DNA of 64,000 nucleotides from a virus, in IMG/VR virus record IMGVR_UViG_3300023174_000046, positions 1 to 64,000 of that record. The stretch is one strand, 5' to 3'. Below the pieces are notes generated by a model. That model had not been told where the DNA came from. It saw only the letters and a list, made by a program, of their open reading frames with translations, and made no database searches. Each line of letters starts with the position of its first letter. The stretch's first letter is position 1. The position numbers and the translations under genes were made by a program. Shown here piece by piece: positions 26,447-53,798 of this stretch.

Positions 26447-26447
26447 T

Positions 26448-26522: not shown

Positions 26523-26533
26523 TTTTTTTTATT

Positions 26534-26824: not shown

Positions 26825-26896
26825 ATACAATATATATTTGTAATAATTTAAATTCCACTTGAAATGTTTAATAAATCCTATATCATTGTAAATAAT

Positions 26897-26971: not shown

Positions 26972-26976
26972 ATTTT

Positions 26977-28689: not shown

Positions 28690-29834
28690 ATATCAGAGAT
28701 ACGTGTATAATGTCTACCACCATCAAACTTATTGTTAGTAATTATCTCTATATATTTCTTAAATTGTTCTTTGCTTAAGTTCTTAGAAGGGAAAGAAAAG
28801 AAATTGCAGCAATTGTGCTTGATTGCATACTCACAAGAATAGTCATCGTACACAAGGCATGATCTTATGCCTTCTACTTTATTGGCACAAATATTAACTC
28901 CTTGCCCGGTTCTACAAAACGCAAGAACTAGATCAACATTTTTTTTAAGCAGTTGCTTGGCTGATTCTTTGACGTATATATTGTAATCACAATCTTTGCC
29001 TGAGAATGTTCCGTAATCAATATAATCAATCTTATATTCATTCAACAACTCTATTGCGAGTTCCTTAGCCTCATAACCAGAATGATCAGAGCATAAACCT
29101 ATACGCAATGTATCATACAATACATTTTTTTCATAGAATTCTAATTCTAACGGTGTTCCTAATACATAGAATTTATCTGTTAAGATTGCATTAACCTTTA
29201 AATTATTTTTTATGTAGTGATTATAAATAGGACATATATAATATTCATTTTTTACTGTTTCTTTATTTTCAATCATTATTGATGCATACTTAAAAAACAA
29301 TTCTGGTTTTTTAAAGAAATATAAACCTGCTGCAGCGTTATCGCTTATAACTTCTTTTTCTTTTGTTTCAACAACAAATCCATCTTCACCCAACCTTGCA
29401 TAGCTATGATCGGGGCTATTCGCTTTAAAGGTAAGCAGTGATGCATCGTATTTAATAAACAAGTCTAGATCAAAATTTGGCGCAAAAGTAACATCCGGAG
29501 TATAGACAACAAGCGGCAGGGCGTTGTCAATATATTCACGAGAATACAAACAAGTACATAATGCACCGCCTGTTAATTCATTTAATTCTATAATCGTTAT
29601 ATTATTGCCAAATTTTTTCTTTAAAAAACTATCGATTGAAAAATTTAAAACGTGTTGCTTCTGAACAATAAAAATTATATTTGCGTCACTCAAGTTAAAG
29701 GGTGTCAATGCATGCTCTAATATTGTCTTCTTATTACAAGGTATCATTGGCTTGGGCATCAAATAACCTGCTTCTTTAAAGCGGTTTGCAGAGCCAGCTA
29801 TAGGTAATACTAAGTTATATTTTTTTGAGCTCAT
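28686..29834 (-). CDS. Fusion of sugar nucleotidyltransferase and RpiB-like isomerase, 382 aa
   Basis: Residues 1-230 are a nucleotidyltransferase: LVLPIAGSANRFKEAGYLMPKPMIP (G..R...PKP signature), then VVYTPDV. From about 240 the protein matches RpiB/LacAB isomerases: IGLCSDHSGYEAKELAIELL, DYGTFSGKDCDYNIY, LVLAFCRTGQGVNICANKVEGIRSC (with the catalytic Cys in the CxTGxG loop) and HNCCNFFSFP. RpiB enzymes interconvert aldose and ketose phosphates; the N-terminal half activates a sugar-1-phosphate. I do not know an identical fusion. It overlaps the kinase gene by 20 bases. Confidence 0.8.
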   Translation of the reverse strand: MSSKKYNLVLPIAGSANRFKEAGYLMPKPMIPCNKKTILEHALTPFNLSDANIIFIVQKQHVLNFSIDSFLKKKFGNNITIIELNELTGGALCTCLYSREYIDNALPLVVYTPDVTFAPNFDLDLFIKYDASLLTFKANSPDHSYARLGEDGFVVETKEKEVISDNAAAGLYFFKKPELFFKYASIMIENKETVKNEYYICPIYNHYIKNNLKVNAILTDKFYVLGTPLELEFYEKNVLYDTLRIGLCSDHSGYEAKELAIELLNEYKIDYIDYGTFSGKDCDYNIYVKESAKQLLKKNVDLVLAFCRTGQGVNICANKVEGIRSCLVYDDYSCEYAIKHNCCNFFSFPSKNLSKEQFKKYIEIITNNKFDGGRHYTRISDI

Positions 29835-30483
29835 ATGTTATTAAATCGTGTGACGGCTTTATTGATTTATGCACATTTAGTTTATTTTCAATTAAATTAC
29901 ATAAAACGTATGCTGCAAATTTATCACCCAACCCTAATACATTCACATTATCAACAATCTCAGCATTAAAATCGGTAGAACCATCTCTTGTGTAAAGAGT
30001 GCTGCCCGTCTTCTTATGCAGAATTATGTTTGGGATTTTTCTTGATAATTCCTCCATACTAATAAAACAATCTTCATCAGAAATAAACAACAAATCTATC
30101 TTGTTTAAGAATTCAGAAGTTCCATCTAGATGTCTACCATTACAAACATCTGCGGTAACGAAACCGTTTAAATTTTCAATAAACGAGATATCTTCTAATT
30201 CATTAATATACATTATATGATGTATTGAAGAAGACTGCACTATAGCGGGTGAGCTATAGAGATTGAGACATGATTTGCTAGTTCTCTTTGATTCCTTTTG
30301 ATTTATCATTACAAGGGATTCACCTATTGCAGTAGGTTGTAAAGAAATTTTGAGGTGAGGTTTATATTCTTTTATGCTCTTCCACACATTACCCATGCAA
30401 CCGACCGAAGTCGTATTTTCAAAACCGTTAAATATGTTATCGAAGCTCAGATGGCCGTAGAGAGAGATATCAAAACTTTTCAT
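29815..30483 (-). CDS. PfkB-family carbohydrate kinase-like protein, 222 aa
   Basis: Beginning and end match the ribokinase/PfkB fold in diverged form: LYGHLSFDNIFNG and GCMGNVWKSIKE at the N-terminus, and VNVLGLGDKFAAYVLCNLIE at the C-terminus (the DTxGAGDxF motif with the catalytic Asp). It is short for the family (usually about 300), and the middle region is compressed. In this operon it would phosphorylate a sugar phosphate or sugar, as HldE does with heptose-7-phosphate. Overlaps both neighbours. Confidence 0.65.
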   Translation of the reverse strand: MKSFDISLYGHLSFDNIFNGFENTTSVGCMGNVWKSIKEYKPHLKISLQPTAIGESLVMINQKESKRTSKSCLNLYSSPAIVQSSSIHHIMYINELEDISFIENLNGFVTADVCNGRHLDGTSEFLNKIDLLFISDEDCFISMEELSRKIPNIILHKKTGSTLYTRDGSTDFNAEIVDNVNVLGLGDKFAAYVLCNLIENKLNVHKSIKPSHDLITYELKKI

Positions 30484-31000
30484 GTTGATCTATTGCGTAT
30501 ATGTTTTCTATGCTGTAGTTAGAAATAAGATCTCTCTCTAATAACCATTCGTACAGTTCTAATACACAATTGTCACCTCCTTTATTCTTTAAAACGTGGG
30601 AAATTTTTTTAATTTCTTTTGGAGCATCGCTCGGGCAAAAAGCATATTTTACTTTTTTCATAATTTCTAAATCAAACGTATCATCTCCCATAAACACTGC
30701 TTCATCTGATAAGCAATTATATTTTTCTAATAATGTATGCAAAAACTCACTCTTGCACATACCCCGGGTATAATAAAAAGGTATATTTCTATTTTTAGCT
30801 ATAGCCTCATTTATCTTGTTATCTCCTGATAAAAAAACAACTTCAATATTTACAGATTTAAATTTTTTAATAGCAGTAAAGTCTTTATCGCAGAATGTTT
30901 TGTACGCTGCAGTGCCGCTGCTGTCGTAGTATTTTTTACCATCTGTTAAAATACCATCTACATCTAATATTATTAATTTTATCAAAATATTATTCTCCAA
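30470..31000 (-). CDS. KdsC-like HAD phosphatase, 176 aa
   Basis: The HAD motifs are LIILDVDGILTDGKKYYDSSG (DxD nucleophile, about 9-28), VVFLSGDNK (motif II), a Lys within MCKSEF and VFMGDDTFDLEIM (motif III). These match 3-deoxy-D-manno-octulosonate-8-phosphate phosphatase (KdsC) and related sugar phosphatases. It overlaps the kinase gene by 14 bases. In the operon it could remove a phosphate between kinase and nucleotidyltransferase steps, as GmhB does in heptose synthesis. Confidence 0.8.
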   Translation of the reverse strand: MENNILIKLIILDVDGILTDGKKYYDSSGTAAYKTFCDKDFTAIKKFKSVNIEVVFLSGDNKINEAIAKNRNIPFYYTRGMCKSEFLHTLLEKYNCLSDEAVFMGDDTFDLEIMKKVKYAFCPSDAPKEIKKISHVLKNKGGDNCVLELYEWLLERDLISNYSIENIYAIDQHEKF

Positions 31001-31609
31001 TTATCTTATCAAATTAACATCTACATCTACACGTTCTTCACTTATACTGTTTGTTGTGCAATGATGTTTTAATAAAGTCTCGGGATGAAAAATTATATTA
31101 TTATCGATATAATCATTTATTCTTAGGTATATCTCTGATATTTTATCCATGGTTTTTGAGTCAGAAAACCAGAATTGGTCACAATACCCGCCAAGATAAT
31201 CTTTTTCTCTGTTGCCAATCAATACAATAGCATTATTCGTTGTTCTCAATTTGACCTTATTTGTAAATGTACAATCTGGTCTCAATCTCACTACTACATC
31301 AAAATCTTCACCAGTTTCAACTTCATAATCGCGTTTCAATTGAACACATTTGTAAACTTTATACATCCACTTTAAAATATTTGTTATGTTAGGGTTAGTT
31401 CCGCTCGATTTTGCTGTAAATTTTGCAAGTTTATTTTTGTAAAGATCAAGCTCTGGTACATACAAGGATCTCTCTGCAATAAGCCCTGGTAAAGGAACAT
31501 CTGTTACAGTAAATATCTTATGATCGCAGTCAAATAAATTTGAAATTATGTTATCTTTGTTCTGTTCCCAGGTTCTTGTTTGGCCTGAAATACATATAGC
31601 AACTTTCAT
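31001..31609 (-). CDS. Putative glycosyltransferase, 202 aa
   Basis: The sequence MKVAICISGQTRTWEQNKDNIISNLFDCDH and the DVVVRLRPDCTF segment (about residue 105) resemble a group of putative glycosyltransferases in viruses and bacteria that have VxISGQ(T/P)R and R.RPD motifs. No membrane segment. It is the first gene of the seven-gene minus-strand operon ending at 26977, right after an early promoter. Confidence 0.55.
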   Translation of the reverse strand: MKVAICISGQTRTWEQNKDNIISNLFDCDHKIFTVTDVPLPGLIAERSLYVPELDLYKNKLAKFTAKSSGTNPNITNILKWMYKVYKCVQLKRDYEVETGEDFDVVVRLRPDCTFTNKVKLRTTNNAIVLIGNREKDYLGGYCDQFWFSDSKTMDKISEIYLRINDYIDNNIIFHPETLLKHHCTTNSISEERVDVDVNLIR

Positions 31610-31614
31610 ACAAC

Positions 31615-31645
31615 ATTATATTACAGGAGTTGATTAGTTTTTCAA
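31615..31645 (-). promoter_or_regulatory. Early promoter for the sugar operon
   Basis: TATAAT on the minus strand (31615-31620) lies five bases before the ATG at 31609; TTGAAA at 31640-31645 is a -35 candidate, with a 16-base spacer if TAATAT (31618-31623) is the -10. It overlaps the plus-strand tRNA promoter. Confidence 0.5.
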
Positions 31646-31657
31646 CCATAATATAAT
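31630..31657 (+). promoter_or_regulatory. tRNA promoter, TTGATT-16-TATAAT
   Basis: TTGATT at 31630-31635 and TATAAT at 31652-31657, 24 bases before tRNA-Pro and overlapping the divergent promoter of the sugar operon. Confidence 0.6.
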
Positions 31658-31680
31658 ATGTAGTTCTTTTACATTTTATT

Positions 31681-31754
31681 CGGGCATTAGCACAGCCTGG
31701 TAGTGCACTTGCTTTGGGAGCAAGATGTCGCAGGTTCAAATCCTGCATGCCCGA
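31681..31754 (+). tRNA. tRNA-Pro (TGG)
   Basis: Acceptor CGGGCAT/ATGCCCG, anticodon loop TTTGGGA (TGG), T-loop AGGTTCAAATCCT. Confidence 0.95.
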
Positions 31755-31841
31755 AGTTTTTTGTTGGGTGGACGTTTTAGCGTTTTCCCTGTCCTTTAAA
31801 ACAACTGAAGAGAGAAACGCGACAAGTTGTTTACCAGCATT

Positions 31842-31924
31842 GGGTAGATACCGAAGTGGCCAAACGGGGGAGACTGTAAATCTCTTGGCTTACGCCTTCA
31901 GTGGTTCGAATCCACTTCTGCCCA
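31842..31924 (+). tRNA. tRNA-Tyr (GTA)
   Basis: Class II tRNA with variable arm, acceptor GGGTAGA/TCTGCCC and anticodon loop CTGTAAA (GTA). The 87 bases before it hold no recognised gene but contain two complementary pairs (GCGTTT/AAACGC and ACAACT/AGTTGT). Confidence 0.93.
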
Positions 31925-31930
31925 AATTTC

Positions 31931-32014
31931 CGTCGCATGGCGAAATGGCAGACGCGCTAGCCTTAGGAGCTAGTACCGCAAGGTGTGTAGGTTCAAGTCC
32001 TACTGTGACGACCA
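31931..32014 (+). tRNA. tRNA-Leu (TAG), CCA encoded
   Basis: Class II tRNA, acceptor CGTCGCA/TGTGACG, anticodon loop CTTAGGA (TAG), encoded ACCA end. Confidence 0.94.
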
Positions 32015-32021
32015 TTATAAT

Positions 32022-32094
32022 GGGGGTGTAGCTCATCTGGTAGAGCGGGACCTTTGCAAGGTCTAGGTAGCGGGTTCGAGTCCTGTCACCTCCA
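32022..32094 (+). tRNA. tRNA-Ala (TGC)
   Basis: Acceptor GGGGGTG/CACCTCC, anticodon loop TTTGCAA (TGC). Its acceptor sequence is identical to that of the tmRNA at 35036, as expected for alanine charging. Confidence 0.95.
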
Positions 32095-32130
32095 TGTTAT
32101 TAAAGTAAGATCCAAGGACTAAGTAATTAT

Positions 32131-35651: not shown

Positions 35652-38105
35652 TTATTTCTTTGTGTTAATTGTAGGTTGTGGTGCAACTCTGTTACCCGAT
35701 TCATTATTCAAGTCCATTGCAATGGTTCTTACTGCATCATTATCTCTTTTCAACGTTAATGGTAGATTCTTAAACGTGTGACTATGACCATACACAATGA
35801 CGCTATCTGGATCTGGAATTTGACCTGCAGTAGTAGTGGTAAATACCGGTGCAGGGTTACCACCCGCTTGACCTGTCATAGAAGCACACACAGGTAGATC
35901 TTTAGTCGCAAAAACTTCAACTGTCCCACCTTGTGGATCAACACCTGTACCAACTAAAGTACCTGTAGGTACATACCCAATTATTGCACCTGTAACTAAT
36001 GCATTATAACCGATAATTTTTGGTAACGCATTATTTGTTTGACCGGTAACAATTGTGCGGTTTGTTTCTTGAATTTCAGTAGGTGCAGTAATATGATTAA
36101 CAGTTAGTTCACCTTCTATGTGTGCACCACCACCCACAACCATGTTACGAGCGACCCCTAAATTACTATCAATAACAACTTGCTGATTGTAGCGTTGCTT
36201 GATATTAACAATATCAGCAATTAATTGTAATTTTTGACCGCCATCAATACACACTTCATTTTCACTGGCTATATTAACTTGCTGACCTGCAATGTTTGTA
36301 ATAGTGCCACTTACATTTACCGGTCCATAACTCTTGAAGTTTATACCACCAGCACCCACCATTAAATTGTATCTGTTACCAATTGTTTGTGTGTAAGTAC
36401 CGCCTGGGAGATCATCCACGTGCACATATTCAACTACCGGGCTTGGTTGCTGGCAGTTGAAAACACCTTGTGGGTGAACAATGACAGCATTAACACTAAT
36501 TTTACCAACCTTATCAATTCTTGTTGAAGGTAAATCATTAATATCCATACCAATTGTTTCAATTTTATTTTTTGTAATATTGATAATTTCGCTACCACCC
36601 ACACCCATTTGCTTCTCCAGATTTGTAAAATTGTCCATGTTATCAGAAATGTATTTTGCTATTTGCTGCTTACGAGGGTCTTCAAGAAAATCACCATCTT
36701 GTGAGCTAGGGCTCAATCCTGAGCCTTTGCATGCTGGGCATGTTTGACCGAAAATTGTTCCAACACCGGGAAATTTGCCACTAGTGGCAGGTATGCCTAT
36801 ACCAAAAGGTATAACTGCAGGGAGCCCCATGTTTGACCATGGTGAATTGATAAGAGAAGTTGTTTCACCAGTACCTGCATAAACAAAGATGTTATTAATT
36901 TTCCAATAAAAATCTTGACTGTCTGCGCAAACTGGACATGCAGCGTTTTTACCGCTTTTTGATTGAAAGGGTGATGTGAGATTTATGAACCCTTTTTTAA
37001 GAGCAGTTGTTCTTTTTGTTTCAAATAATTGCTTGAGATCAGCTAGGCCGCGTAACAGCTCTTTGTATTGTAAATGTGGTGTGTAGTTTAAATTGCCTAT
37101 TTTTCTGTATAAATCACCTCTTATAACATTATCATAATCTCTACCTACGTAAAGATTTTTAAAGCCATTAACAGTTAGGAACTGGTCTTGCATAACCAAC
37201 TTTTGGTCTGATTGAGTTGCAAGTTCTATATTTGTAAAATTATTAAATTCTTTAAATGAACCGGAGAAGTGAGTCATTTTTAGTGACTCACGGTTATCTG
37301 TATTGATAAACTCTAGTGTGCCGCCTTTTTGATTTATAACGTATTTGTTCCGGTAAGTATCAACATTTATATCAAATACATCTTTTCCAGATAGAGAATA
37401 ATTTTCATAATAACCAGGATAGTCTTGACCTGGTGAACTATCACCAACATTATCTAAACTATCATATATGCCTTTCCAATCTTCTTTGCCGTACGCAACA
37501 GCAAAATAAACTGGATGCATAATATCACCATCAGTAAAAAAGACATAGACGTGTGAACCAACGTTGGGCACACCAAACGTACCCTTGGCTCGATTTGAAT
37601 AGCTATTGGGTACATAATTATAGCTATATTTGTTTGTTATGTTTGTATTGTACTTTGCAGGGTCATTAAATGCATCGTTTAGCTTGTATTCAACAGACTC
37701 ATAAACATTTGCTGGCTTCTCTCCAATGTTATCAATATTCTGATTACCGACATCAGTATTTTTTTCTCGTGTTGGTTCGAAAGTGCTTAATCTTGCAGTA
37801 TCAGAAATAGATCCTACAGTTTTAAAGAAATTAAATCTACCACTTGCAGCTTCACCACTCACAGGAGCCGCACATTCAGCCCATGGTAATTGGAGCTTCA
37901 AATCCTCCAATATTGTATTCATGCTGCTATTAATATTGTCACCTAGGAACTTGAATTTTTTATCGTTCAGTGTATCAACCCAGCCGCGATAAGTTGTAGG
38001 CATTAAATGCGGTACCCATACTTTAACGCGTCCTCTTTTCTGTGGATCGTTATTCTGAACTACCATTCCCATGTAGTTGCCGTAGAATTTCTGTCTTTTA
38101 GCCAT
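35652..38105 (-). CDS. Baseplate hub/spike protein, gp5-like, 817 aa
   Basis: The N-terminus, KFYGNYMGMVVQNNDPQKRGRVKVWVPHLMPTTY, is the OB-fold of T4 gp5-type and VgrG-type baseplate spikes. The C-terminal 250 residues form a repetitive beta-helix-like spike (VNVSGTITNIAGQQVNIASENEV..., VINHITAPTEIQ). No lysozyme domain is seen. At about residues 390-480 two CxxC pairs (CPVCADSQDFYW and CPACKGSGLSP) resemble a DnaJ-type zinc finger, which is unusual for this family. It is convergent with the small gene upstream of it and divergent from the base-modification operon. Confidence 0.8.
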   Translation of the reverse strand: MAKRQKFYGNYMGMVVQNNDPQKRGRVKVWVPHLMPTTYRGWVDTLNDKKFKFLGDNINSSMNTILEDLKLQLPWAECAAPVSGEAASGRFNFFKTVGSISDTARLSTFEPTREKNTDVGNQNIDNIGEKPANVYESVEYKLNDAFNDPAKYNTNITNKYSYNYVPNSYSNRAKGTFGVPNVGSHVYVFFTDGDIMHPVYFAVAYGKEDWKGIYDSLDNVGDSSPGQDYPGYYENYSLSGKDVFDINVDTYRNKYVINQKGGTLEFINTDNRESLKMTHFSGSFKEFNNFTNIELATQSDQKLVMQDQFLTVNGFKNLYVGRDYDNVIRGDLYRKIGNLNYTPHLQYKELLRGLADLKQLFETKRTTALKKGFINLTSPFQSKSGKNAACPVCADSQDFYWKINNIFVYAGTGETTSLINSPWSNMGLPAVIPFGIGIPATSGKFPGVGTIFGQTCPACKGSGLSPSSQDGDFLEDPRKQQIAKYISDNMDNFTNLEKQMGVGGSEIINITKNKIETIGMDINDLPSTRIDKVGKISVNAVIVHPQGVFNCQQPSPVVEYVHVDDLPGGTYTQTIGNRYNLMVGAGGINFKSYGPVNVSGTITNIAGQQVNIASENEVCIDGGQKLQLIADIVNIKQRYNQQVVIDSNLGVARNMVVGGGAHIEGELTVNHITAPTEIQETNRTIVTGQTNNALPKIIGYNALVTGAIIGYVPTGTLVGTGVDPQGGTVEVFATKDLPVCASMTGQAGGNPAPVFTTTTAGQIPDPDSVIVYGHSHTFKNLPLTLKRDNDAVRTIAMDLNNESGNRVAPQPTINTKK

Positions 38106-38138: not shown

Positions 38139-38951
38139 ATGCTAATGAAAGTATCACACGAGTCTCCTGTATCTATACTTGATCTTTCTAAAGAATATAA
38201 CGATTTTGATTACTGTCTTGTACATCTTCTAGATCAGTATCCTTTATATAAAGATTTCTTTAAATCCGCTAGACAAATTTATAATAGAGAAGTATTACTT
38301 GACAATTCTATTTTTGAATTGGGCAAGGCTTTTGATGGCCATGAGTTCTGGGTAAAGGCTAAAGAAATTATGCCAAATATGTTTATTGTACCAGATGTAC
38401 TTGAGGATACAAAAGGTACAATAGAAAGCTTTAAAGCTTTTGAAGAATCCACAAGTGATATCAAGAGTAGCTTTCTTACAAAAGCCATTGGTGCAGTACA
38501 GGGTAAAAATTGGCACGAGCTAAGAGAATGTTACAAATTTATGGCAGATAATGCCGATATGATTGCCATAAGCTTCGACTTTAGTTACTATCAAGTTACA
38601 GGTGAAGGCACAACGCATTTAGAAAAATGGTGCTCTGGTCGTCAAAGGTTTATTTTGGATTTAATAAATACCGGTGTATGGAATTGGAGCAAGCCACATC
38701 ACTTACTTGGCTGCTCTCTAGCAAAGGAATTTAGGTATTATGTTGATAGAGATATTCACAATATTGTTAGTTGTGATACCAGCAATCCCGTTGTTGCTGC
38801 TATACATGGATTAAAATACGATGCAGATTATGGTTTGCAATCCAAGCCTTCAACAAAGTTAGCTGATTTAATTGAGCATAATTTTACTGATGATCAGCTT
38901 GAACTTGTAAAATATAACACTACAATGTTCAAGAAGATTATTCGCAGATGA
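38139..38951 (+). CDS. TGT/DpdA-like guanine-exchange enzyme, 270 aa
   Basis: The protein looks like a TIM-barrel tRNA-guanine-transglycosylase relative. VLLDNSIFELGKAF (about 50-64) is in the position of the substrate-binding DSGGFQ/LDNGAFE motif, IGAVQGKNWHELRECYKFM (about 115-133) resembles the G(V/I)(V/P)QG loop, and HHLLGCSLAKEF...VSCDTSNPVVAAI (about 187-225) contains the HLLG strand and an Asp-Thr segment expected near the nucleophile. Phage DpdA proteins replace guanine in DNA with 7-deazaguanine bases. Its context with QueF and formyltransferase supports DNA rather than tRNA as target. Assignment is from motif pattern. Confidence 0.6.
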   Translation: MLMKVSHESPVSILDLSKEYNDFDYCLVHLLDQYPLYKDFFKSARQIYNREVLLDNSIFELGKAFDGHEFWVKAKEIMPNMFIVPDVLEDTKGTIESFKAFEESTSDIKSSFLTKAIGAVQGKNWHELRECYKFMADNADMIAISFDFSYYQVTGEGTTHLEKWCSGRQRFILDLINTGVWNWSKPHHLLGCSLAKEFRYYVDRDIHNIVSCDTSNPVVAAIHGLKYDADYGLQSKPSTKLADLIEHNFTDDQLELVKYNTTMFKKIIRR

Positions 38952-39517
38952 GACCTTGGGTAACATTTTTTTCACAAACCGGTACCGAGATATACGATCT
39001 CAGTAATATTATCAATACATACCCAGATTGTATTGCTACAAATAAACAAGATCATAAAACTACTAATATAGGGTTACGGGCAGTAACTGAATTTAGATCA
39101 CAAAAACTTAATGAAAACATTTGGGTTCAATTGCCACAAAAGCCAACAGTAAGTGATTATGAAAATGCTTTGAAAAATTATAATAAACCTGTTGTAACGT
39201 TACATGGATACTTGAGAATTATTCCAAAAGAAATTTGCGAGAAATATGAAATATACAATCTACATCCAGGTCTTATTAATAAATTTCCAGCATTAAAAGG
39301 TTTTAATCCGCAGGAAAGAGCTTTTGCAGGAGGCTATAGGTTAGCAGGATGTGTAATACACAGAGTAACGCCTGGAGTAGATGAAGGTGAAATATTAATG
39401 AGCCAAGGTGTGAGTATTGAAGGCATGAATCTTGATGGTGTTTATGGTGCTTTACGAGACACTGCACTTGATCTCTGGAAAAGCTTCTTTACATCGTATA
39501 ATATACTAAAACGTTAA
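38948..39517 (+). CDS. Formyltransferase (GART/PurN-type), 189 aa
   Basis: The N10-formyl-THF-dependent formyltransferase core is at about residues 80-170: TLHGYLRIIP, IYNLHPGLINKFPALKG (the Asn and His catalytic residues), LAGCVIHRVTPGVDEGEILMSQG with the catalytic Asp. The folate-binding loop and length fit a stand-alone catalytic domain. The ATGA overlap with the DpdA-like gene indicates a related task; formylation of a base or of an aminomethyl group is a possible role. A purine-synthesis role (GAR transformylase) is the alternative. Confidence 0.75.
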   Translation: MRPWVTFFSQTGTEIYDLSNIINTYPDCIATNKQDHKTTNIGLRAVTEFRSQKLNENIWVQLPQKPTVSDYENALKNYNKPVVTLHGYLRIIPKEICEKYEIYNLHPGLINKFPALKGFNPQERAFAGGYRLAGCVIHRVTPGVDEGEILMSQGVSIEGMNLDGVYGALRDTALDLWKSFFTSYNILKR

Positions 39518-39518
39518 T

Positions 39519-40478
39519 ATGGATATTTCGTTGCATTACGAGAACGTATTTCTCAAGCCTAACTTTAATACTGTACAAACAAGATCACAAATAGACACAG
39601 AAGTTATGTTTTGTGGCAAGACATTCATGCTGCCTGTGATACCTGCAAATATGAAATGCTGTGTTGATAGTGATGTTTGTAAGCTTTTAGATTCTAAGCA
39701 ATGCTTTTATATCATGCATAGATTTGATGAAGACATACAAAATTTTGTACGATATGCAAATTTACAAAATTTTAATACTGTATCCATCAGTGTAGGTATA
39801 CAGCAAAAAGATAGAAACCTTGTAACTGCTATTGGTCAAAGCTTGATGCGAGTAGATTTTATTACAATTGACGTTGCACATGGACATCATTCAAAAGTTG
39901 CAGATCAAATTAAACACATTAAACAAACATTGCCTGGCACAAAAGTTATAGCAGGTAATATCGCTACGTTCGAAGGTGTTGAATATCTGCATAGAGCTGG
40001 TGCTGATGCAGTTAAAGTTGGTATTGGTGGTGGTTATGCGTGTACTACAAAAGATAAGACAGGATTTACTTTTCCTATGTTTAGCTGTATTATAGAGTGT
40101 GCAAAGGACAGAGATGTGCCTATTATTGCAGATGGCGGTGTTCGTAGCAACGGTGATATTGCTAAAGCACTAGTAGCAGGTGCAAAGATGGTGATGTGTG
40201 GTTCTATTTTTGCAGCATGCTCAGATAGTCCTGCACCTGCTGTAAAAGATGCTTCTGGTAGACGATACAAACAATACTACGGGTCTGCTAGTATACACAA
40301 TAAACTTGATAAGAAAAATATTGAGGGTACTATGAAGCTTATGGATACAGATTCGTTTACTTACGAAGAAAAATTGCAAGAAATAAAACAAGACTTACAA
40401 AGTGCAATTAGTTATGCAGGTGGTTGCAATCTTGGTATATTAAATTTAAATAGAGTGGCCTACGGGGTAAGATTATGA
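39519..40478 (+). CDS. guaC: GMP reductase-like (IMPDH/GMPR family) protein, 319 aa
   Basis: A TIM barrel with no CBS domains. KVGIGGGYACTTKDKTGF (about 166-183) holds the catalytic Cys, and IIADGGVRSNGDIAKALVAGAKMVMCGSIFA (about 202-232) binds the phosphate, followed by YKQYYGSAS. The KTGF continuation after the Cys loop fits GMP reductase better than IMP dehydrogenase. GMP reductase converts GMP to IMP with NADPH. Lying between a base-exchange candidate and an Nmad1-like gene, it may adjust the guanine pool. Confidence 0.8.
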   Translation: MDISLHYENVFLKPNFNTVQTRSQIDTEVMFCGKTFMLPVIPANMKCCVDSDVCKLLDSKQCFYIMHRFDEDIQNFVRYANLQNFNTVSISVGIQQKDRNLVTAIGQSLMRVDFITIDVAHGHHSKVADQIKHIKQTLPGTKVIAGNIATFEGVEYLHRAGADAVKVGIGGGYACTTKDKTGFTFPMFSCIIECAKDRDVPIIADGGVRSNGDIAKALVAGAKMVMCGSIFAACSDSPAPAVKDASGRRYKQYYGSASIHNKLDKKNIEGTMKLMDTDSFTYEEKLQEIKQDLQSAISYAGGCNLGILNLNRVAYGVRL

Positions 40479-40822
40479 ACAAAGAAGATGTAATAAAATA
40501 TGTTGAAAAGAACTTCCCTGTAACATGCAAGGAATTTCAAAGAATTCAAGCCGAACTATATGAGACTTTTTGTAAGAAGCAATTTGATTACGGTCCAGGT
40601 AATATTTCCCTTGGTTCAGACTTAGTTAAAGAAGAAGATAAATTTGCAGCTGTATCTGCTATTGTTGTTAGATTAAACGATAAAATTCAACGACTAATTA
40701 ATTTGGTACTGAAAAAGAAAGCAATGAATTCTGTCAATGAACCAGTTATGGATGCTTTTAGAGACTCTGCTGTGTATTGTGTTATAGCTGAAATAGTTAA
40801 CAACAATAAATGGGGTAAATAA
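40475..40822 (+). CDS. Nmad1/DUF1599-like nucleotide-modification-associated protein, 115 aa
   Basis: The pattern ETFCKKQFDYGPGNISLG, then VVRLNDKIQRLINL and NEPVMDAFRDSAVYCVIAEI, matches the DUF1599 (nucleotide modification associated domain 1) family, helical and often found next to phage DNA-base-modification genes. Its activity is not known. It overlaps the GMP reductase-like gene (ATGA). Confidence 0.65.
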   Translation: MNKEDVIKYVEKNFPVTCKEFQRIQAELYETFCKKQFDYGPGNISLGSDLVKEEDKFAAVSAIVVRLNDKIQRLINLVLKKKAMNSVNEPVMDAFRDSAVYCVIAEIVNNNKWGK

Positions 40823-40828
40823 TTGTAG

Positions 40829-40857
40829 TTGATTACATCTTTAAAATATATTATAAT
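40829..40857 (+). promoter_or_regulatory. Early promoter, TTGATT-17-TATAAT
   Basis: TTGATT at 40829-40834 and TATAAT at 40852-40857; the ATG at 40863 follows five bases later. Confidence 0.7.
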
Positions 40858-40862
40858 ATATA

Positions 40863-41030
40863 ATGTTTAAAAAACTTTTACCTAATTTCTTAACACGTGA
40901 CAAAGAGATAGTAGTTAAATTCAAAGAAATTGAAGAAGAGAATAAAATTCTTCTCGAAGAGATCAGACAGTTGAAGAAGCTTCTTTATGATATAGAATTA
41001 GATTTTGCTGCAAGAGTAAAAAACAAATGA
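40863..41030 (+). CDS. Coiled-coil protein, 55 aa
   Basis: A 55-residue protein (MFKKLLPNFLTRDKEIVVKF..., ending RVKNK) with heptad-like Leu/Ile spacing in EIEEENKILLEEIRQLKKLL, so probably a short coiled coil. It has a leaderless-type early promoter and overlaps the next gene by ATGA. Confidence 0.6.
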   Translation: MFKKLLPNFLTRDKEIVVKFKEIEEENKILLEEIRQLKKLLYDIELDFAARVKNK

Positions 41031-41614
41031 TCTTATCGTTTACTGGTCCACAAAGTTCAGGTAAGACTACTCTTCTAAAGAAGTGTAAAGAGTATTATGG
41101 TTCGAAGTTATGTTATATTGATGAAGTTACTAGACTAATTAAACGTTGGCATAATTGTGATATAAATGAAGAAGGTGCAAGTGATGTTACGCAGACATTA
41201 ATTCTAAATAAAGAATTTGAGAATTTGTTTTATAATTACAAAGGATTTGGATTTCAAGGCATATTGCATGATCGTTGCTTGATGGATGGCATGGTTTATA
41301 CAAGTTATTTTGCTGGTAGTAGACTAAATGATTTTCCTGTATCTAATAGCTTAGGTTTGTTATACTATACAAATTATATTAAAAAGTATGATCATATCTT
41401 TTATCCAAGTCCTCATGATGTTCCGCTGGTTGATGATGGTGAGAGAAGCATTAATAAAGAATTTAGGGATGCTATTATTGATAAGTATGAAAATTTTTGG
41501 CTAAAAGATGAGAGATTGAAAGATAAAGTTACTATTTTAAGAGGGACTGTTGACGAGCGAATGGAACAGATTAAGTCAAAGATATGTCAGTTGATGCCAA
41601 GCCTTTCTGTTTAG
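41027..41614 (+). CDS. P-loop AAA_28/NadR-like ATPase or kinase, 195 aa
   Basis: The Walker A loop is FTGPQSSGKTTLLKK at residues 5-19, with a Walker-B-like ILHDRCLMDGMVY (about 83-95). This matches the NadR-type ribosylnicotinamide kinase/AAA_28 group and small phage nucleotide kinases. A paralogue is at 60351. The substrate is not visible. It overlaps the radical-SAM gene by 31 bases. Confidence 0.7.
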   Translation: MILSFTGPQSSGKTTLLKKCKEYYGSKLCYIDEVTRLIKRWHNCDINEEGASDVTQTLILNKEFENLFYNYKGFGFQGILHDRCLMDGMVYTSYFAGSRLNDFPVSNSLGLLYYTNYIKKYDHIFYPSPHDVPLVDDGERSINKEFRDAIIDKYENFWLKDERLKDKVTILRGTVDERMEQIKSKICQLMPSLSV

Positions 41615-42903
41615 CTCCTTGGGCAGGCATTCACGCACTACCAGATGGGTTGGTGTACCCATGTTGCATGTCTACATTCGATCCCGAAAATTCGTTCGGT
41701 GATCTCAATAAAAATACAATTGAAGATATTTTAAATTCAGAAAAAGCAAAGCAATTTAGATGCAAGATGATGGCAAATAAGCCGGATGAGAGAGCTTGTA
41801 GTCATTGCATAAGTGAAGAAAAAACAGGAACAAAAAGTTTCCGTAATCACTGGAATACTAAGTATGAACATACTCTTCCTTTTGTTAAAGAAACAGATAA
41901 AGATGGTTATTATCGATTTAAAAATTTTCCATATATTGATATAAGACTATCAAGCTTGTGTAATTTTAAATGTAGAATGTGTCATAGTGGCTTGAGCTCT
42001 GCTTGGTTATTAGAAGACATAAAGTATGAATCAAATTATCAAAATTCTTTTAATCTTAAAACCGGTGTTATTGAGATACCACAAAAAGAAAAACTTATTA
42101 AATTTATTATTGATAGGATTGAGCATGTGGAGGAGATTGAGTTTGCAGGTGGTGAACCTTTTCTAATAGCAGATTATTTTACTCTAATTAAAGAATTTAA
42201 AAGAGCAAAAAATTTTAACGTTAGGATAAGATTTCATACAAATGCATCTTCTTTGTATTGTAAGGGTGAATATATACCAAACTTGCTCAAGGAGTTTAAA
42301 AATGTTTTTATAATGTTGAGTATTGACGGTTACAGTGAAGTTAATGACTACATGAGAAAAGGTAGTGTATATAATAAAATTGTTACAAATATAACTTTAC
42401 TTAAACAAATAGTACCACAAGCATTCTTGAGATTGGTACCGACAATTAGCATACCAACTGTATATAGTGTGCCTTTCTTGTATGTAGATTTCTTACGCAA
42501 AGGTTTAATTCGGCATGAGGATATTGCATGCAGACCTCTTTACGGGCCTGAATATCTTAACATACAGACACTACCATTAGAAGATAAATTAAAAATTTTA
42601 AAGTTCTATAATTACTTTATTGATAACATAACAGCTAAACTTCTACAACACTTTCCAGATGAAAGCGTCACATATGTTAAGCAAGAATTTTCATCAATTA
42701 TGAATTTCATGTTGCTTAAAAATCAAATTGTGCAATTTAATAGCAATAGGTTTAAGGAGAGTATTAAGCGGCTTGATATTCGACGAGACGAAAGTTACGA
42801 AGATATTTCACCAGAAACTGCTCATCTTTTATCAGGCAGTGTTTCAATATACAATCTAGATAACAAATATAATGAGTTGAAGACTTTCATAGATAGCATA
42901 TAA
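41584..42903 (+). CDS. Radical SAM protein with twitch/SPASM-type domain, 439 aa
   Basis: The radical-SAM CX3CX2C cluster motif is LSSLCNFKCRMCHSG at about residues 125-138, with EFAGGEPF (GGE motif) near 190. The N-terminus has further Cys (FCLAPWAGIHALPDGLVYPCC, later CSHCISEE) that could bind an auxiliary iron-sulfur cluster, as in SPASM/twitch proteins. Such enzymes modify peptides or small molecules. In cyanophages similar proteins exist without a known substrate. It lies just before queF. Confidence 0.8.
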   Translation: MSVDAKPFCLAPWAGIHALPDGLVYPCCMSTFDPENSFGDLNKNTIEDILNSEKAKQFRCKMMANKPDERACSHCISEEKTGTKSFRNHWNTKYEHTLPFVKETDKDGYYRFKNFPYIDIRLSSLCNFKCRMCHSGLSSAWLLEDIKYESNYQNSFNLKTGVIEIPQKEKLIKFIIDRIEHVEEIEFAGGEPFLIADYFTLIKEFKRAKNFNVRIRFHTNASSLYCKGEYIPNLLKEFKNVFIMLSIDGYSEVNDYMRKGSVYNKIVTNITLLKQIVPQAFLRLVPTISIPTVYSVPFLYVDFLRKGLIRHEDIACRPLYGPEYLNIQTLPLEDKLKILKFYNYFIDNITAKLLQHFPDESVTYVKQEFSSIMNFMLLKNQIVQFNSNRFKESIKRLDIRRDESYEDISPETAHLLSGSVSIYNLDNKYNELKTFIDSI

Positions 42904-42904
42904 T
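42899..42904 (+). promoter_or_regulatory. -10 box before queF (TATAAT)
   Basis: TATAAT at 42899-42904 overlaps the end of the radical-SAM gene, eight bases before the queF ATG. No strong -35 box is seen. Confidence 0.4.
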
Positions 42905-42912
42905 ATTGTACA

Positions 42913-43833
42913 ATGAATACAGAATTAGATAATAGTAATATTTCAAAGCATTTAGGCAAAATTACCGGGTACAAGTGTACATATGATCCTTCACTTCTGG
43001 TTCGCGAGCCAAGACAAAATAATAGAAAGCATTTGAAAATTTCTGATGAAAATCCGCCTTTCTGTGGCTATGATGTTTGGAATGCTTATGAAGTGTCTTG
43101 CTTGACTCAAGAGGGCATGCCCATTGCTGCTATTGCTAAAGTTGTTTACCCTGCTACTAACAAATATATTGTTGAATCAAAGTCCATTAAACTGTACATG
43201 AATTCGTTTAATATGGAGACATATCAAGGCAATATTATTAGTGTACTGCAGCAGCTTGAAGCTGTAATGGAGAATGATCTTTCTAAATTGCTTGAAACTG
43301 AAGTTAGAGTATGTGTCAGGCTTACTAAGGCCATTGATGATGCAATGTATTACCCAGCATTGTTTCCTTCTGCGTTGTATCCAACGCTTGAGAATAATAT
43401 TGATGTAACGACTATTAAATCGCGTGGCTACAAAGAAGATCCTAAATTACTTGGTTGGTTGGAAGGTGACAGTAGCAAAGTGCAGCGCTTTCATTCAGCT
43501 CTATTAAAGAGTAATTGCAGGGTCACATCTCAACCGGACTGGGGGGATGTTTATATTCATTACAAAGGACCTTATGAACTCAATCAAACATCTCTATTGC
43601 AGTACATTGTTTCGTTTAGAGATGAATGTCATTTTCATGAAGAGATTTGTGAAACGATTTACAAGCGTCTTTATGATTTGACCAAGCCTGAAGAACTGAT
43701 GGTATCTTGCTTATATGTAAGACGGGGTGGTATTGATATTAATCCTATTAGAGCTAATAGTCAGGAACTACTCAAGCAGAACGGTGCCATGTGGGACAAG
43801 TGGAAGTACTTTACTAAGACAGTAAGACAGTAA
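42913..43833 (+). CDS. queF: 7-cyano-7-deazaguanine reductase (QueF)
   Basis: A long-form (two-domain) QueF of 306 residues. The N-terminal half has YDPSLLVREPRQNNR, FCGYDVWNAYEVSCL and VESKSIKLYMNSFNM, the substrate and NADPH region. The C-terminal half has LKSNCRVTSQPDWGDVYI with the catalytic Cys, and SFRDECHFHEEICE and GGIDINPIRAN. The reaction reduces preQ0 to preQ1 with NADPH. A phage copy means that preQ1, not only preQ0, is made on purpose. Confidence 0.92.
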   Translation: MNTELDNSNISKHLGKITGYKCTYDPSLLVREPRQNNRKHLKISDENPPFCGYDVWNAYEVSCLTQEGMPIAAIAKVVYPATNKYIVESKSIKLYMNSFNMETYQGNIISVLQQLEAVMENDLSKLLETEVRVCVRLTKAIDDAMYYPALFPSALYPTLENNIDVTTIKSRGYKEDPKLLGWLEGDSSKVQRFHSALLKSNCRVTSQPDWGDVYIHYKGPYELNQTSLLQYIVSFRDECHFHEEICETIYKRLYDLTKPEELMVSCLYVRRGGIDINPIRANSQELLKQNGAMWDKWKYFTKTVRQ

Positions 43834-44354: not shown

Positions 44355-45851
44355 TTAGAAGTAGACTGATTGTGTTCCAGGGGTAAAGGCAACGCCTAGA
44401 CCCGAGATGATGATAACGTGGTAGTACAAGTTAGCACCAAATATATTGTCGACTACACCGTAGCGGGTCATGAGACCAACACGAGGAGCGAAATCATTTG
44501 GACCAATTGTACGCTGTACCATAACAGGGATGTATGGGCAGTAGATAATACCGGTATCATAAAACTCTGGACCCTTGTAGCCCAATAGGGCGTACTCGAG
44601 AGGAGTTTGACGAGAACCAGATTGAAACTGTGCCTCAGTACGTGTGTCACGATACACATTAAAACGTCCACCAAGTGAACCTACCTTAGCTACGCCTACT
44701 GGTTGTGTGTTTACATTACCCTGTACAGGTACCCACTGGAATTCAGGGAGCATCTCAAGGATAGCGCAAACGCGAGGTGTTGCAACAACAAAGTTGGCTG
44801 CACCACGACGATTACGAACAGCAATACGGTTAGCTTCGATAATTAGTCTCTGATAGAAATCGCGATTACGTTCAACGAGCCAACGACCGTCTGCTGAAGC
44901 TGGGCTCCAAACAGAGTAGCCGGTGCCTGCGCCAGCGTTTAGAGCAACCTGGATCATGCGGATGATCATTTCACGATCGATTTCTGCCTGTAGCTCATAG
45001 CTCATAGCATTTGTCAATTCAGTGTCAATGTCAATACCGTTCATGTTCTTAAGATCTTGCTCCAATTCTACTGACCAGCGAGCGCCTAGTCTACGTGTAC
45101 CGGCTTCAACTGCTGTCTTCTCGAAGGAAACTACGACCTGAGGGATTGCTCCTGTCAATTCGTAATCCTTGAGAATACGTGCTACACCTGCATCTGATCC
45201 GAGGATCGAGAAAGCAGAGTTACCGGACAAGCCGGCAGATGATGTACCAGTGAAACGTGTATCTAGGAACTGATAACCCAATTCTTGACCGTCTGTACCT
45301 GCAGCGGTAGGACCGCCGTAGTTTGTACCTACAGTTGTACCGGTAGCTGATGGTTGACCATCAACACCGTTACCAAGGGCTTCGTTATCGTAACGATAGC
45401 GCAAAGCAAATGCCAAACCAACTGGGCCTGACATTGGCTGAACGCCAACGATTTCATTAGAAATAAGTTCTGGGAACGTTCTACGAATCATCGGAATCAA
45501 GATCTTTGGAAGACGATAATCACCTGCTGCATAGGTATCAGTACCAGGAGTACCAGCTGGGTTATTAACCCAATTGGATGTCTGGAATGTACCTAGAGAA
45601 CCACCGGCATTGCCAGCGGCATTTGAACCGGCCTGATCAGGATATGAAGGGTTATAATTAGGCCCTGCTTCCCTCAAGCACCATTGTTCTTGGTTTTCCA
45701 AGAGAATGGCTGTGTTCAAACGGGTATGATCATCTTCGATTGCTGCAACATTCTTGGAAGAGTAATCCAATACTGGACTCCACTTTTCAAGAAGAGCTGC
45801 GGCTCTTGATTCGTCAATATATGACTGCGAAGGACGAACAACTTTTTTCAT
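44355..45851 (-). CDS. 23: Major capsid protein (T4 gp23-like)
   Basis: A 498-residue protein with the gp23 N-terminus (LLEKWSPVLDY..., AILLENQEQW), the repeat-like AAG(S)NAAG spacer and the HK97-type core: MIRRTFPELISNEIVGVQPMSGPVG, ELEQDLKNMNGIDIDTELTNAMSYELQAEIDREM and a C-terminal FAPRVGLMTRYGV. A gp21-type cleavage is possible after LRE (between residues 61 and 62), removing the leader. It forms the hexamers of the capsid and needs the gp31-like chaperonin in T4. It directly follows gp22. Confidence 0.95.
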   Translation of the reverse strand: MKKVVRPSQSYIDESRAAALLEKWSPVLDYSSKNVAAIEDDHTRLNTAILLENQEQWCLREAGPNYNPSYPDQAGSNAAGNAGGSLGTFQTSNWVNNPAGTPGTDTYAAGDYRLPKILIPMIRRTFPELISNEIVGVQPMSGPVGLAFALRYRYDNEALGNGVDGQPSATGTTVGTNYGGPTAAGTDGQELGYQFLDTRFTGTSSAGLSGNSAFSILGSDAGVARILKDYELTGAIPQVVVSFEKTAVEAGTRRLGARWSVELEQDLKNMNGIDIDTELTNAMSYELQAEIDREMIIRMIQVALNAGAGTGYSVWSPASADGRWLVERNRDFYQRLIIEANRIAVRNRRGAANFVVATPRVCAILEMLPEFQWVPVQGNVNTQPVGVAKVGSLGGRFNVYRDTRTEAQFQSGSRQTPLEYALLGYKGPEFYDTGIIYCPYIPVMVQRTIGPNDFAPRVGLMTRYGVVDNIFGANLYYHVIIISGLGVAFTPGTQSVYF

Positions 45852-51231: not shown

Positions 51232-51575
51232 ATGATATAATGATTTATCTCTCTTTTAGAGAGTTCAAGGTTTTGAGCTAACATAGTTAACTCTTTATTT
51301 TCTTCCTCTTCCTTTGTATTTTTCTTTTTAACGTAGTCTATTTTCTTAAAATTGTATTTAGGGAGAAAATTTTTTAAAAAATAAAAATGTTCTTGTTTTG
51401 AAAAATTAGTAAAACGGTTTGTAGTGATGTTAATAATATTAGCTAACTCTTTATTATAAAAAGAGCACCATCGATTTATCATAAACGGTGTATAAGAATT
51501 GTTATTATCGTGATTTATCTCTCTACTTTTCTTTGAATAAAGAATGGAGTTGAGAAAGTCAAAAATTGTATCCAT
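51213..51575 (-). CDS. 62: DNA polymerase sliding-clamp loader small subunit, gp62-like
   Basis: The motif YTPFMINRWCSFYNKELANIINITTNRF is the core of T4 gp62-like clamp-loader subunits ((Y/S)PF(M)INR..S). The 120-residue length and helical, Lys/Asn-rich composition fit the family, which forms the A subunit of the loader with gp44. The gp44 gene is not in the window. It overlaps the gp31-like gene by 19 bases and abuts the DUF366-like gene. Confidence 0.75.
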   Translation of the reverse strand: MDTIFDFLNSILYSKKSREINHDNNNSYTPFMINRWCSFYNKELANIINITTNRFTNFSKQEHFYFLKNFLPKYNFKKIDYVKKKNTKEEEENKELTMLAQNLELSKREINHYIICQKYL

Positions 51576-52159
51576 TAACTAATAACTTTAGTTGTAGCAA
51601 TAAAGATATCGTCGTTAAGATTATAAAACAGATTAATAATTTCTGCCATGAAGTTATTGGCTTGCTCGTCGGTAAGATTTGTTGAGTAAGCAAAAGCGGG
51701 TGCCTTCTTACCTGCTGCAATATTAATACCGGTATGACCAAGCGCAACATTATTCTTTGTGTATGTGATGCTTACGCTACATTTACCTTTTGGTTGTGCA
51801 ATACCACCTTGTGTATGTTCTTTATGCACAATTAAATCGTCGCCTTTCATTTCAATAGGAGCTTTGAGATATTGTGTAGAGAGAATATTAGCAATCTGAG
51901 TATTTAAAAGTCTTTGATAAGCTACAGCACCAAACGCATCAAGGTTAGGAATTTCCCAAAGAAAATTAATTGCATCATCACTGTAGATATAATCTGCATT
52001 GAGAATATCCTCACTATCAATCATACCTTCTGCTTCAACTTTCATGGGCGATCTGAATGCAATGATATTACCGATCGGTAATGTTTTTTCTCGGAAAAAC
52101 TTATATGCAAATCGTGAATGCAGCAATGACCCGTCGTATATTTTTTGATTAATAATCAT
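51575..52159 (-). CDS. DUF366-like protein, 194 aa
   Basis: The N-terminus YDGSLLHSRFAYKFF, then MIDSEDILNADYIYSDDAINFLWEI, AVAYQRLL, MKGDDLIVHKEH and KCSVSITYTKNNVALGHTGINI match the DUF366 pattern (IYSDxxxxFxxE, RQRLL, GDD, SVSI, HxGxN). Such proteins are mainly archaeal/bacterial; I recall, without checking, a link to 7-deazaguanine tailoring in phages. An early promoter (TTGATA-16-TATTAT) sits six bases upstream. With QueD, QueE and QueF in the window a base-tailoring role is attractive. Confidence 0.65.
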   Translation of the reverse strand: MIINQKIYDGSLLHSRFAYKFFREKTLPIGNIIAFRSPMKVEAEGMIDSEDILNADYIYSDDAINFLWEIPNLDAFGAVAYQRLLNTQIANILSTQYLKAPIEMKGDDLIVHKEHTQGGIAQPKGKCSVSITYTKNNVALGHTGINIAAGKKAPAFAYSTNLTDEQANNFMAEIINLFYNLNDDIFIATTKVIS

Positions 52160-52165: not shown

Positions 52166-52193
52166 ATAATACTATCTCAAACTTGAATATCAA
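52166..52193 (-). promoter_or_regulatory. Early promoter, TTGATA-16-TATTAT
   Basis: On the minus strand TTGATA (52188-52193) and TATTAT (52166-52171), 16-base spacer, six bases before the ATG at 52159. The -35 overlaps the stop of the epimerase gene. Confidence 0.65.
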
Positions 52194-53185
52194 CTCTTTT
52201 CTATTTGCGATTTAATCCAAGAATAAGTCTTTTTTAACCCTTCTGCGAGAGGGTAATTTGGCTGCCAATTTAACTTTTCGCCAATTAATTTATTGCAAGA
52301 ATTTCTGCCCCTTACACCAGTAGGACCATCTAATTTATAATTTTTTGTAATTTTCTTGTTTTCAATGGAGCATGCTAAATCAACTAATTGGTTAATTGTC
52401 ACGCGCTCTTCTGAGCCAATATTGACTGGTCCGAGAAAGTTTGATTCCATCAACCGACGGATACCTTCAACACATTCATCTATATATAGAAATGATCTGG
52501 TCTGCTCACCGTCACCCCAAATTTCAATATCACCAGTTGATTCTAAGACTTTGCGACAAATTGCAGCAGGCGCTTTCTCCTTGCCACCCTTCCATGTTCC
52601 TTGAGGACCAAAAATATTATGAAAGCGTGCAATACGCACATCAATGTTATAATTTCTGTTGTAAGCAAGGTAAAGCCGTTCGCTAAAGAGTTTTTCCCAC
52701 CCATATTCGCTGTCGGGGTTTGCTGGGTAGGCGCTGCTTTCCTCACAATTGGGATTATTTGGATCAAGTTGATTGTGTTCAGGATACATGCAAGCGCTAC
52801 TGCTATAAAATATTTTCTTTAAACCCACATCAACAGCTTCATCTAGAACGTTTAAATTAATTGTTGCAGAATTATGCATCACATCAGCATCATGTGCACC
52901 AGTAAAGATGTAACCTGCTCCGCCCATATCTGCTGCAAGCTGATACACTTCATCAAACGATGTATGGTGCGTGTGCGTGTAATAGTGCCAAGATTTATCC
53001 ATTGCTTTGCGTACGTTGTCACGCTCTCTTAAATCCAAAATAAAGAATTGATCTGCTTGTGTGGAAGAATATTCAGGATATTTTAAATCTACACCACGTA
53101 CAAAATATCCCTCGCTTTTTAATCTTGTAACTAAATGGTTACCAATAAAACCACCTGCGCCTAAAACTAATGCACTTTTTTTCAT
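52190..53185 (-). CDS. NAD-dependent sugar-nucleotide epimerase (GDP-mannose 3,5-epimerase-like), 331 aa
   Basis: An extended SDR: GAGGFIG (NAD-binding Gly loop) at residues 10-16, YGWEK (active-site YxxxK) near 165, SSSACMYPE before it. The segments QLAADMGGAGYI, FHNIFGPQGTWKGGKEKAPAA and GDGEQTRSFLYIDECVEGI are typical of GDP-mannose 3,5-epimerases, which convert GDP-mannose to GDP-galactose or GDP-gulose. It overlaps the methyltransferase start by four bases and is last in the glycosylation operon. Confidence 0.8.
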   Translation of the reverse strand: MKKSALVLGAGGFIGNHLVTRLKSEGYFVRGVDLKYPEYSSTQADQFFILDLRERDNVRKAMDKSWHYYTHTHHTSFDEVYQLAADMGGAGYIFTGAHDADVMHNSATINLNVLDEAVDVGLKKIFYSSSACMYPEHNQLDPNNPNCEESSAYPANPDSEYGWEKLFSERLYLAYNRNYNIDVRIARFHNIFGPQGTWKGGKEKAPAAICRKVLESTGDIEIWGDGEQTRSFLYIDECVEGIRRLMESNFLGPVNIGSEERVTINQLVDLACSIENKKITKNYKLDGPTGVRGRNSCNKLIGEKLNWQPNYPLAEGLKKTYSWIKSQIEKS

Positions 53186-53772
53186 ATTTTTGTTATTAAG
53201 GAGATTTCTTTATTACCGTCATGGTTTGAGATGTGAGCCTTCTTTTTAATGTTGTATTTTTTTAACGGAAAGAAGTCACATGAGAGTGGTCTGCTACGCA
53301 ATGGCATGTCTTGCCAATCGTCCTTCTGATCGCAACTATTGGTTATAAGAATGTAGTTAAAATTAGCAATAGCACGATCTAGAAAATAAACAATTTCGTC
53401 ACATAACCAATGCTGTATTACATCTTTTAGTAAAAGTAAATCACCTGTATAGTTAAAAAAGTTTTCAATTTGCTCAATATATTCAAAGCGAATATTAGGT
53501 GCACTGTAAGTTGAATTGTGGTGGTCGATCAAGCTCTTTACACAGTCGATGCCTAGATAATTTACACTGGACCAGTCAATAAGGCGTGAAAACTGCCAAT
53601 CACCACACCCATAATCAGTTACAGTTTTAATATTATTTTTTTGTATAAAATCTGTAATAAATTTTCTATAACCTACAGTATGTTCTGGATAAGAGCCAGA
53701 ACCTGAACCATTCCACTCGTTTGTGTCGTAAATCCTTGTAAAATGGTTAATATGTGATTTGTGATCGAGCAT
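53182..53772 (-). CDS. SAM-dependent class I methyltransferase, 196 aa
   Basis: Motif I is VTDYGCGDWQFSRLIDW (about 48-64), giving the SAM-binding Gly loop, followed by NYLGIDC (motif II acidic end) and DLLLLKDVIQHWL (motif IV/post). No DNA-binding domain is seen, so a small molecule or sugar methyltransferase is more likely than a DNA one. It belongs to the glycosylation operon. Confidence 0.75.
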   Translation of the reverse strand: MLDHKSHINHFTRIYDTNEWNGSGSGSYPEHTVGYRKFITDFIQKNNIKTVTDYGCGDWQFSRLIDWSSVNYLGIDCVKSLIDHHNSTYSAPNIRFEYIEQIENFFNYTGDLLLLKDVIQHWLCDEIVYFLDRAIANFNYILITNSCDQKDDWQDMPLRSRPLSCDFFPLKKYNIKKKAHISNHDGNKEISLITKI

Positions 53773-53798
53773 TATGATATGTTATAATATATTTGTTA

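Follow-up and report, generated by a model that had tools for sequence, protein, structure and literature searches.

A probable phage-encoded pathway for 7-deazaguanine modification of DNA, with a formyltransferase and QueF beside a DpdA3-type transglycosylase

Layout of the modification locus

The stretch of DNA analysed here, hereafter the window, covers positions 1-64000 of the virus record IMGVR_UViG_3300023174_000046, which belongs to a large aquatic phage and is 217,413 bases long, and at 38139-43833 it carries seven plus-strand genes that form a tightly packed, nearly contiguous operon, with spacings in gene order of -4, +1, -4, +204, -31 and +9 nucleotides (nt). In this order, they encode a DpdA3-type DNA-guanine transglycosylase (38139-38951), a DpdN-like formyltransferase that probably acts on preQ1 or dPreQ1 (38948-39517), a GMP reductase-like protein (39519-40478), a small protein with a weak likeness to DUF1599/Nmad1 (40475-40822), a nucleotide or nucleoside kinase of the AAA_28, thymidylate-kinase or NadR-kinase type (41027-41614), a Twitch/SPASM radical-SAM protein (41584-42903), and the bimodular preQ0 reductase QueF (42913-43833). 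On the minus strand, the operon is flanked by a baseplate-type gene (35652-38105) and a capsid-type gene (44355-45851), both labels being a reading of sequence and position, and a promoter and terminator scan gave no signals above chance. An earlier note on this DNA had described the interval as a 7-deazaguanine DNA-modification set; that observation is confirmed, although three genes of the interval escaped it, namely those for the GMP reductase-like protein (39519), the kinase (41027), and the radical-SAM protein (41584). Together with the precursor genes on the same contig, the operon probably constitutes a complete phage-encoded 7-deazaguanine DNA-modification pathway, the product of which would be 2'-deoxy-7-(formylamino)methyl-7-deazaguanine (fdPreQ1). 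Modified guanine in phage DNA is a known kind of anti-restriction disguise.

The transglycosylase and its target

The 270-residue protein encoded at 38139 has no significant sequence match in Pfam or PDB, and a PDB sequence search with a DpdA3 family profile returned nothing, so that a fold search was needed. An AlphaFold model built from 32 relatives (mean predicted local distance difference test score 87, predicted template modelling score 0.86) was used for a structural comparison, a check that the earlier note had proposed against DpdA for its TGT/DpdA-like barrel, and the first 50 PDB matches were all tRNA-guanine transglycosylases (TGTs; best E 1.8e-8, probability 1.0). The nearest relatives in phages, DpdA of the CP220 group of Campylobacter phages (45-46% identical, with 91% of the protein covered) and a protein of Flavobacterium phage vB_FspM_immuto_2-6A (immuto, NC_055915) annotated as DNA guanine transglycosylase (43% identity), point in the same direction. 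A tblastn search of all phage records with this protein returned the CP220 group, immuto, and two distant phages, and not 9g (DpdA1) or nt-1 (DpdA2), and the family profile also picked up a DpdA-like protein of Cellulophaga phage phiST (4e-13). The subfamily name DpdA3 was reportedly introduced by Cui and colleagues in 2023, and we take it to apply to DpdA of the CP220 and immuto type. D55 (in LLDNSxFE), D86 (IVPDV), the pair Q121-G122, and D213 (CDTSNP) are invariant and may correspond to the base-recognition and catalytic positions of TGT, an assignment limited by the weakness of the profile alignment to E. coli TGT, in which the last Asp is misplaced by two residues.

The genes might also be thought to serve queuosine in host or phage tRNA rather than phage DNA. 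The usual queuosine targets are tRNAs with GUN anticodons, and the window carries twelve phage tRNA genes (25059-32095), those for Asp, Asn, and Tyr with GUN anticodons among them. However, searches of the contig for canonical TGT (PF01702) and QueA (PF02547) found neither. Moreover, the protein has no Cys after position 212 and thus lacks the C-terminal zinc site of tRNA TGT, and it groups with DpdA of phages that have fully modified DNA, all of which makes a tRNA role very improbable. With DNA as its substrate, the transglycosylase would act post-replicatively, exchanging guanine for the modified base at what is probably a large proportion of G positions. In CP220 and CPt10, 100% of dG is replaced by dADG (PMC8306585), which makes a high degree of dG replacement plausible by analogy in the phage studied here.

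Synthesis of preQ0 and its reduction to preQ1

All four genes of the preQ0 set are present on the contig. QueE, the 7-carboxy-7-deazaguanine synthase (61099-61848, minus strand; phrog_2076 9.4e-45, TIGR03963 6e-13), has an iron-sulfur cluster motif with a long loop, CX3CX11C, and QueD, the 6-carboxytetrahydropterin synthase (62841-63482, minus strand), matches PTPS (PF01242, 2.4e-17) and phrog_2389 (1.3e-36), in agreement with what the earlier note had read from their motifs. That note had also correctly stated that FolE and QueC are absent from the window, and the search of the remaining contig that it proposed located both, at 64946-65596 and approximately 84797-85525, respectively. FolE, QueD, QueE, and QueC would convert GTP to preQ0. 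In phiST, FolE, QueD, and QueE are present, QueC is not detectable in the genome, and the QueE loop is shorter (CX3CX7C).

The identification of the 42913 protein as QueF was likewise borne out (PF14819, E 1.4e-33; PF14489, 8.9e-23; TIGR03138, 2.1e-77). It matches the bimodular QueF of V. cholerae (PDB 3BP1) over nearly its entire length (E 2.9e-49, 171 bits) and keeps the active-site residues, namely the NADPH motif E88-SKSIKLY, Cys202, Asp209, and the His-Glu of FHE at 241; unlike this bacterial enzyme, it is encoded by a phage. It would reduce preQ0 to preQ1. For phage QueF homologues, an earlier study left open whether they act as reductases or in a role like that of archaeal QueF-L, and reported dPreQ1 for Dp-1 and HVTV-1 (PMC6884629); a second study gives a mass consistent with dPreQ1 for a QueF-bearing vibrio phage (PMC12028318). 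Like the present phage, these phages have QueF together with preQ0 genes, and dPreQ1 was found or indicated in their DNA, whereas their DpdA belongs to another subfamily or was not found, and formyltransferase genes go unmentioned in the consulted parts of both papers.

A different fate of preQ0 is conceivable, since a stand-alone class II glutaminase gene (contig 85530-86180; L009:2130-2780) starts 4 nt past queC, and in several relatives such a gene lies within approximately 1.5 kilobases (kb) of queC, as if the two proteins formed a split Gat-QueC with archaeosine (dG+) as the end product. In the relatives, however, another gene separates the two, the glutaminase resembles GlmS/PurF, none of its phage matches is annotated as Gat-QueC, and QueF has retained the NADPH motif that characterizes true reductases. 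A split Gat-QueC is thus not supported, and we consider archaeosine extremely doubtful.

Composition of the cassette in related phages

Close DpdA3 relatives were found at 53 IMG/VR loci, and wherever the contig extends far enough, the cassette is almost always flanked by the same baseplate and capsid genes. Loci in which the capsid gene was also found were counted as complete (n = 45, the window included). The combination of formyltransferase, GMP reductase-like, DUF1599-like, kinase, and QueF genes occurs in 20 of the 45, and the same set without the GMP reductase gene in 13; a further 10 have only kinase and QueF beside DpdA3, one has formyltransferase, kinase, and QueF, and one has DUF1599-like and kinase genes with QueF not detected. 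DpdA and kinase are therefore constant and QueF is nearly so, while the formyltransferase is optional. The GMP reductase-like genes were recruited more than once: two of the 20 loci (L030 and L043) have a different such gene approximately 3-4 kb upstream, and at L049 the gene directly follows QueF. QueF was also exchanged in place, as nine relatives (L034-L037, L039-L042, and L044) carry a very distant QueF lineage in the same cassette slot, although their DpdA3 nests inside the main group. We rejected the idea that this distant QueF is inactive, since the alignment shows its Cys kept as RSRCRHTKQKDTG.

Among cultured phages, immuto arranges dpdA, formyltransferase, kinase, and QueF in the same way, the formyltransferase lying one short open reading frame past dpdA, and it likewise has QueD, QueE, and FolE near the cluster and QueC in its genome, with proteins that are 43-45% identical. 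Its cluster differs in having no GMP reductase-like, DUF1599-like, or radical-SAM genes, all of which are present in the window, and its que genes adjoin dpdA, whereas in the phage studied here they are spread over 47 kb. The CP220 group shares the DpdA and a kinase gene after dpdA, and has no QueF or formyltransferase beside dpdA; its DNA carries dADG (PMC8306585). Overall, the system is of a known kind and its gene composition is new: two separate lineages have a radical-SAM gene between kinase and QueF, GMP reductase genes recur, and QueF was replaced in place. The DpdA3, formyltransferase, and QueF pathway, seen among cultured phages in a single genus, now extends to uncultivated aquatic phages, a large group that keeps the cassette at one genomic position. 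Because formyltransferase, GMP reductase, and radical-SAM genes come and go naturally in this group and QueF has been exchanged, a gene can be matched to a base.

Formylation and the proposed end product

The formyltransferase gene overlaps dpdA by 4 nt. Its product was recognized as such in the earlier note, matches PF00551 (5.8e-16), and is 45% identical to the immuto homologue, and N104, H106, and D145 are conserved. An N-H-D triad is the catalytic signature of this enzyme family. The enzyme would probably formylate the aminomethyl group of the base, giving fdPreQ1, and this step may come before or after insertion into DNA. The earlier note had argued that QueF would make preQ1 the end point unless a tailoring enzyme acts on it, and this tailoring question is best answered by the adjacent formyltransferase. 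Its broader proposal that the phage DNA carries preQ1 or a derivative is well supported in its core by the TGT fold, the DpdA3-like relatives, the QueF active site, the finding of FolE and QueC, and the missing canonical TGT and QueA, and is not supported in the parts concerning the DUF366 and Nmad1-like genes.

The pathway with fdPreQ1 as its product is favoured because all precursor genes share one contig, the transglycosylase has a TGT fold with DpdA of CP220 and immuto as its nearest relatives, the immuto gene order is the same, the QueF active site and the formyltransferase triad are intact, and the genes are near-contiguous in a cassette that is fixed in dozens of contigs. Alternatively, dPreQ1 may be the end point, the formyltransferase-like protein then serving purine synthesis or formylating some other substrate. 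Since 10 of the 45 complete loci have no more than DpdA3, kinase, and QueF, phages can evidently manage with dPreQ1 alone, and the formyltransferase does match glycinamide ribonucleotide (GAR) formyltransferase across its catalytic half. However, this match covers only residues 69-158 or so and, at 53 bits, stays far under the PurN cut-off of 150, and the gene is translationally coupled to dpdA and accompanies it in immuto too; we thus regard dPreQ1 as an unlikely end point. Several further points weigh against fdPreQ1 as the product. Both fdPreQ1 and the formyltransferase DpdN were reportedly described by Cui and colleagues in 2023, and our assignment of fdPreQ1 to formyltransferase phages depends on that description. 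The substrate of the formyltransferase could be something else, the NF003966 score of the GMP reductase-like protein is just under the cut-off of that family, and the radical-SAM gene may add another step, in which case fdPreQ1 would not be the end point.

The radical-SAM gene

The radical-SAM protein scores 301.6 bits against NF033640 (cut-off 170) and has the cluster motif CNFKCRMC; in the window, its gene overlaps the kinase gene by 31 nt. It is present in none of the 53 IMG/VR DpdA3 loci. A search with the gene itself found four more contigs, where it always stands directly before QueF and, wherever that side is shown, directly after the kinase gene; the L169-L171 copies share 4 nt with the gene on either side. 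The gene is under purifying selection (non-synonymous divergence 0.077, synonymous divergence approximately 2). Its carriers are not sisters, neither in the QueF tree (window and L172 versus L169) nor in the DpdA tree (window versus L169), indicating that it entered the slot more than once or was repeatedly lost. Such a history invites the suspicion that the gene takes part in the pathway, short of proof.

We speculate that the radical-SAM protein might carry out further tailoring, so that the DNA base would be a new derivative beyond preQ1 or its formylated form. The occupation of one slot, between kinase and QueF, in lineages that neither the DpdA nor the QueF tree places as sisters, the tight coupling, and the purifying selection would fit this idea. 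Nevertheless, the gene is missing from most relatives, the NF033640 family has no known link to DNA bases, and the gene could simply have travelled along with its flank as a passenger, as identity to the window copy climbs toward the capsid side (57% for the formyltransferase, 64% for the kinase, and 85% for the radical-SAM protein), which points to mosaic exchange. Such tailoring therefore appears quite improbable, and we give similarly low odds to its extended form, in which the enzyme adds a step on preQ1 or formyl-preQ1 to yield a base not yet described, and a guanine-recycling loop of kinase, GMP reductase, and phosphoribosyltransferase lets the phage afford the near-complete replacement of G.

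Purine genes and the fate of the freed guanine

Returning to the fdPreQ1 pathway, the kinase, the GMP reductase-like protein, and a phosphoribosyltransferase encoded elsewhere would most likely handle the guanine freed by the exchange. At a high degree of replacement, approximately one guanine would be set free for every G of a progeny genome, and the three proteins could return it to the nucleotide pool. The constant kinase and the recurring purine genes thus raise the question of what becomes of the guanine expelled by a whole-genome base exchange. The GMP reductase-like protein (PF00478, 2.2e-55; NF003966, 1.1e-98) has Cys175 within GYACTTKDKTG. The kinase (PF13521, 2.7e-11) has PDB profile matches to thymidylate kinase and NadR, and its gene adjoins dpdA in CP220 too. 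A second kinase gene, of the AAA_28 or deoxynucleoside kinase type, lies directly beside QueE (60351-61097, minus strand). The phosphoribosyltransferase (15668-16126, plus strand; PF00156, 4.4e-12), a possible guanine-salvage partner, is present in 12 of the 15 contigs of the group that were searched and also in immuto and phiST, although such proteins are common and their co-occurrence is weak evidence.

The small gene at 40475 overlaps the GMP reductase-like gene by 4 nt, and of the 34 complete loci with a formyltransferase gene, 33 have it as well. The Nmad1 likeness ascribed to it earlier did not hold up, as its DUF1599 match (PF07659) is under the curated cut-off (E 0.012, 16.3 bits versus 25); it also matches phrog_1485 (1.2e-12). 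Some cassettes of relatives contain inserts, namely a LOG/lysine-decarboxylase-like gene (L054:9236-9940) and a HIT-domain gene (L053:10806-11180), both of types that act on nucleotides.

The DUF366 gene and its surroundings

The DUF366-like gene that the earlier note had counted as part of the set is real (51575-52159, minus strand; PF04017, 1.5e-23), and it is near-universal in this phage group. A scan picked up relatives in 199 viral contigs, with identities of 76-96% for the best 80. The first match of its model (predicted local distance difference test score 73, the N-terminus being weak) is 2ddz, followed by biotin/lipoate protein ligases. Bacterial relatives were found in Vampirovibrionales, where no neighbour matches the que genes of the window; the genes beside it at L174 and L176 resemble those for glyS and a penicillin-binding protein. 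The gene is also absent from immuto, CP220, and phiST. Because of the ligase fold, the que-free bacterial neighbourhoods, and this absence, we rejected DUF366 as a pathway enzyme and left it out of the pathway. A 130-kb DUF366 contig (G008), which may be incomplete, has QueD, no DpdA or QueC, and a different gene order. The record MW495066.1 ('Microcystis phage MaAM05', L007) looks like a piece of bacterial chromosome, as it carries secDF, glyS, and flagellar motor genes, and it shares the order of glyS, penicillin-binding protein, and DUF366 with the Vampirovibrionales contigs. Next to the DUF366 gene in the window, a minus-strand cluster at 52190-58630 seems, from sequence reading only, to hold genes for a nucleotide-sugar epimerase, methyltransferase, and glycosyltransferase, and perhaps serves virion decoration.

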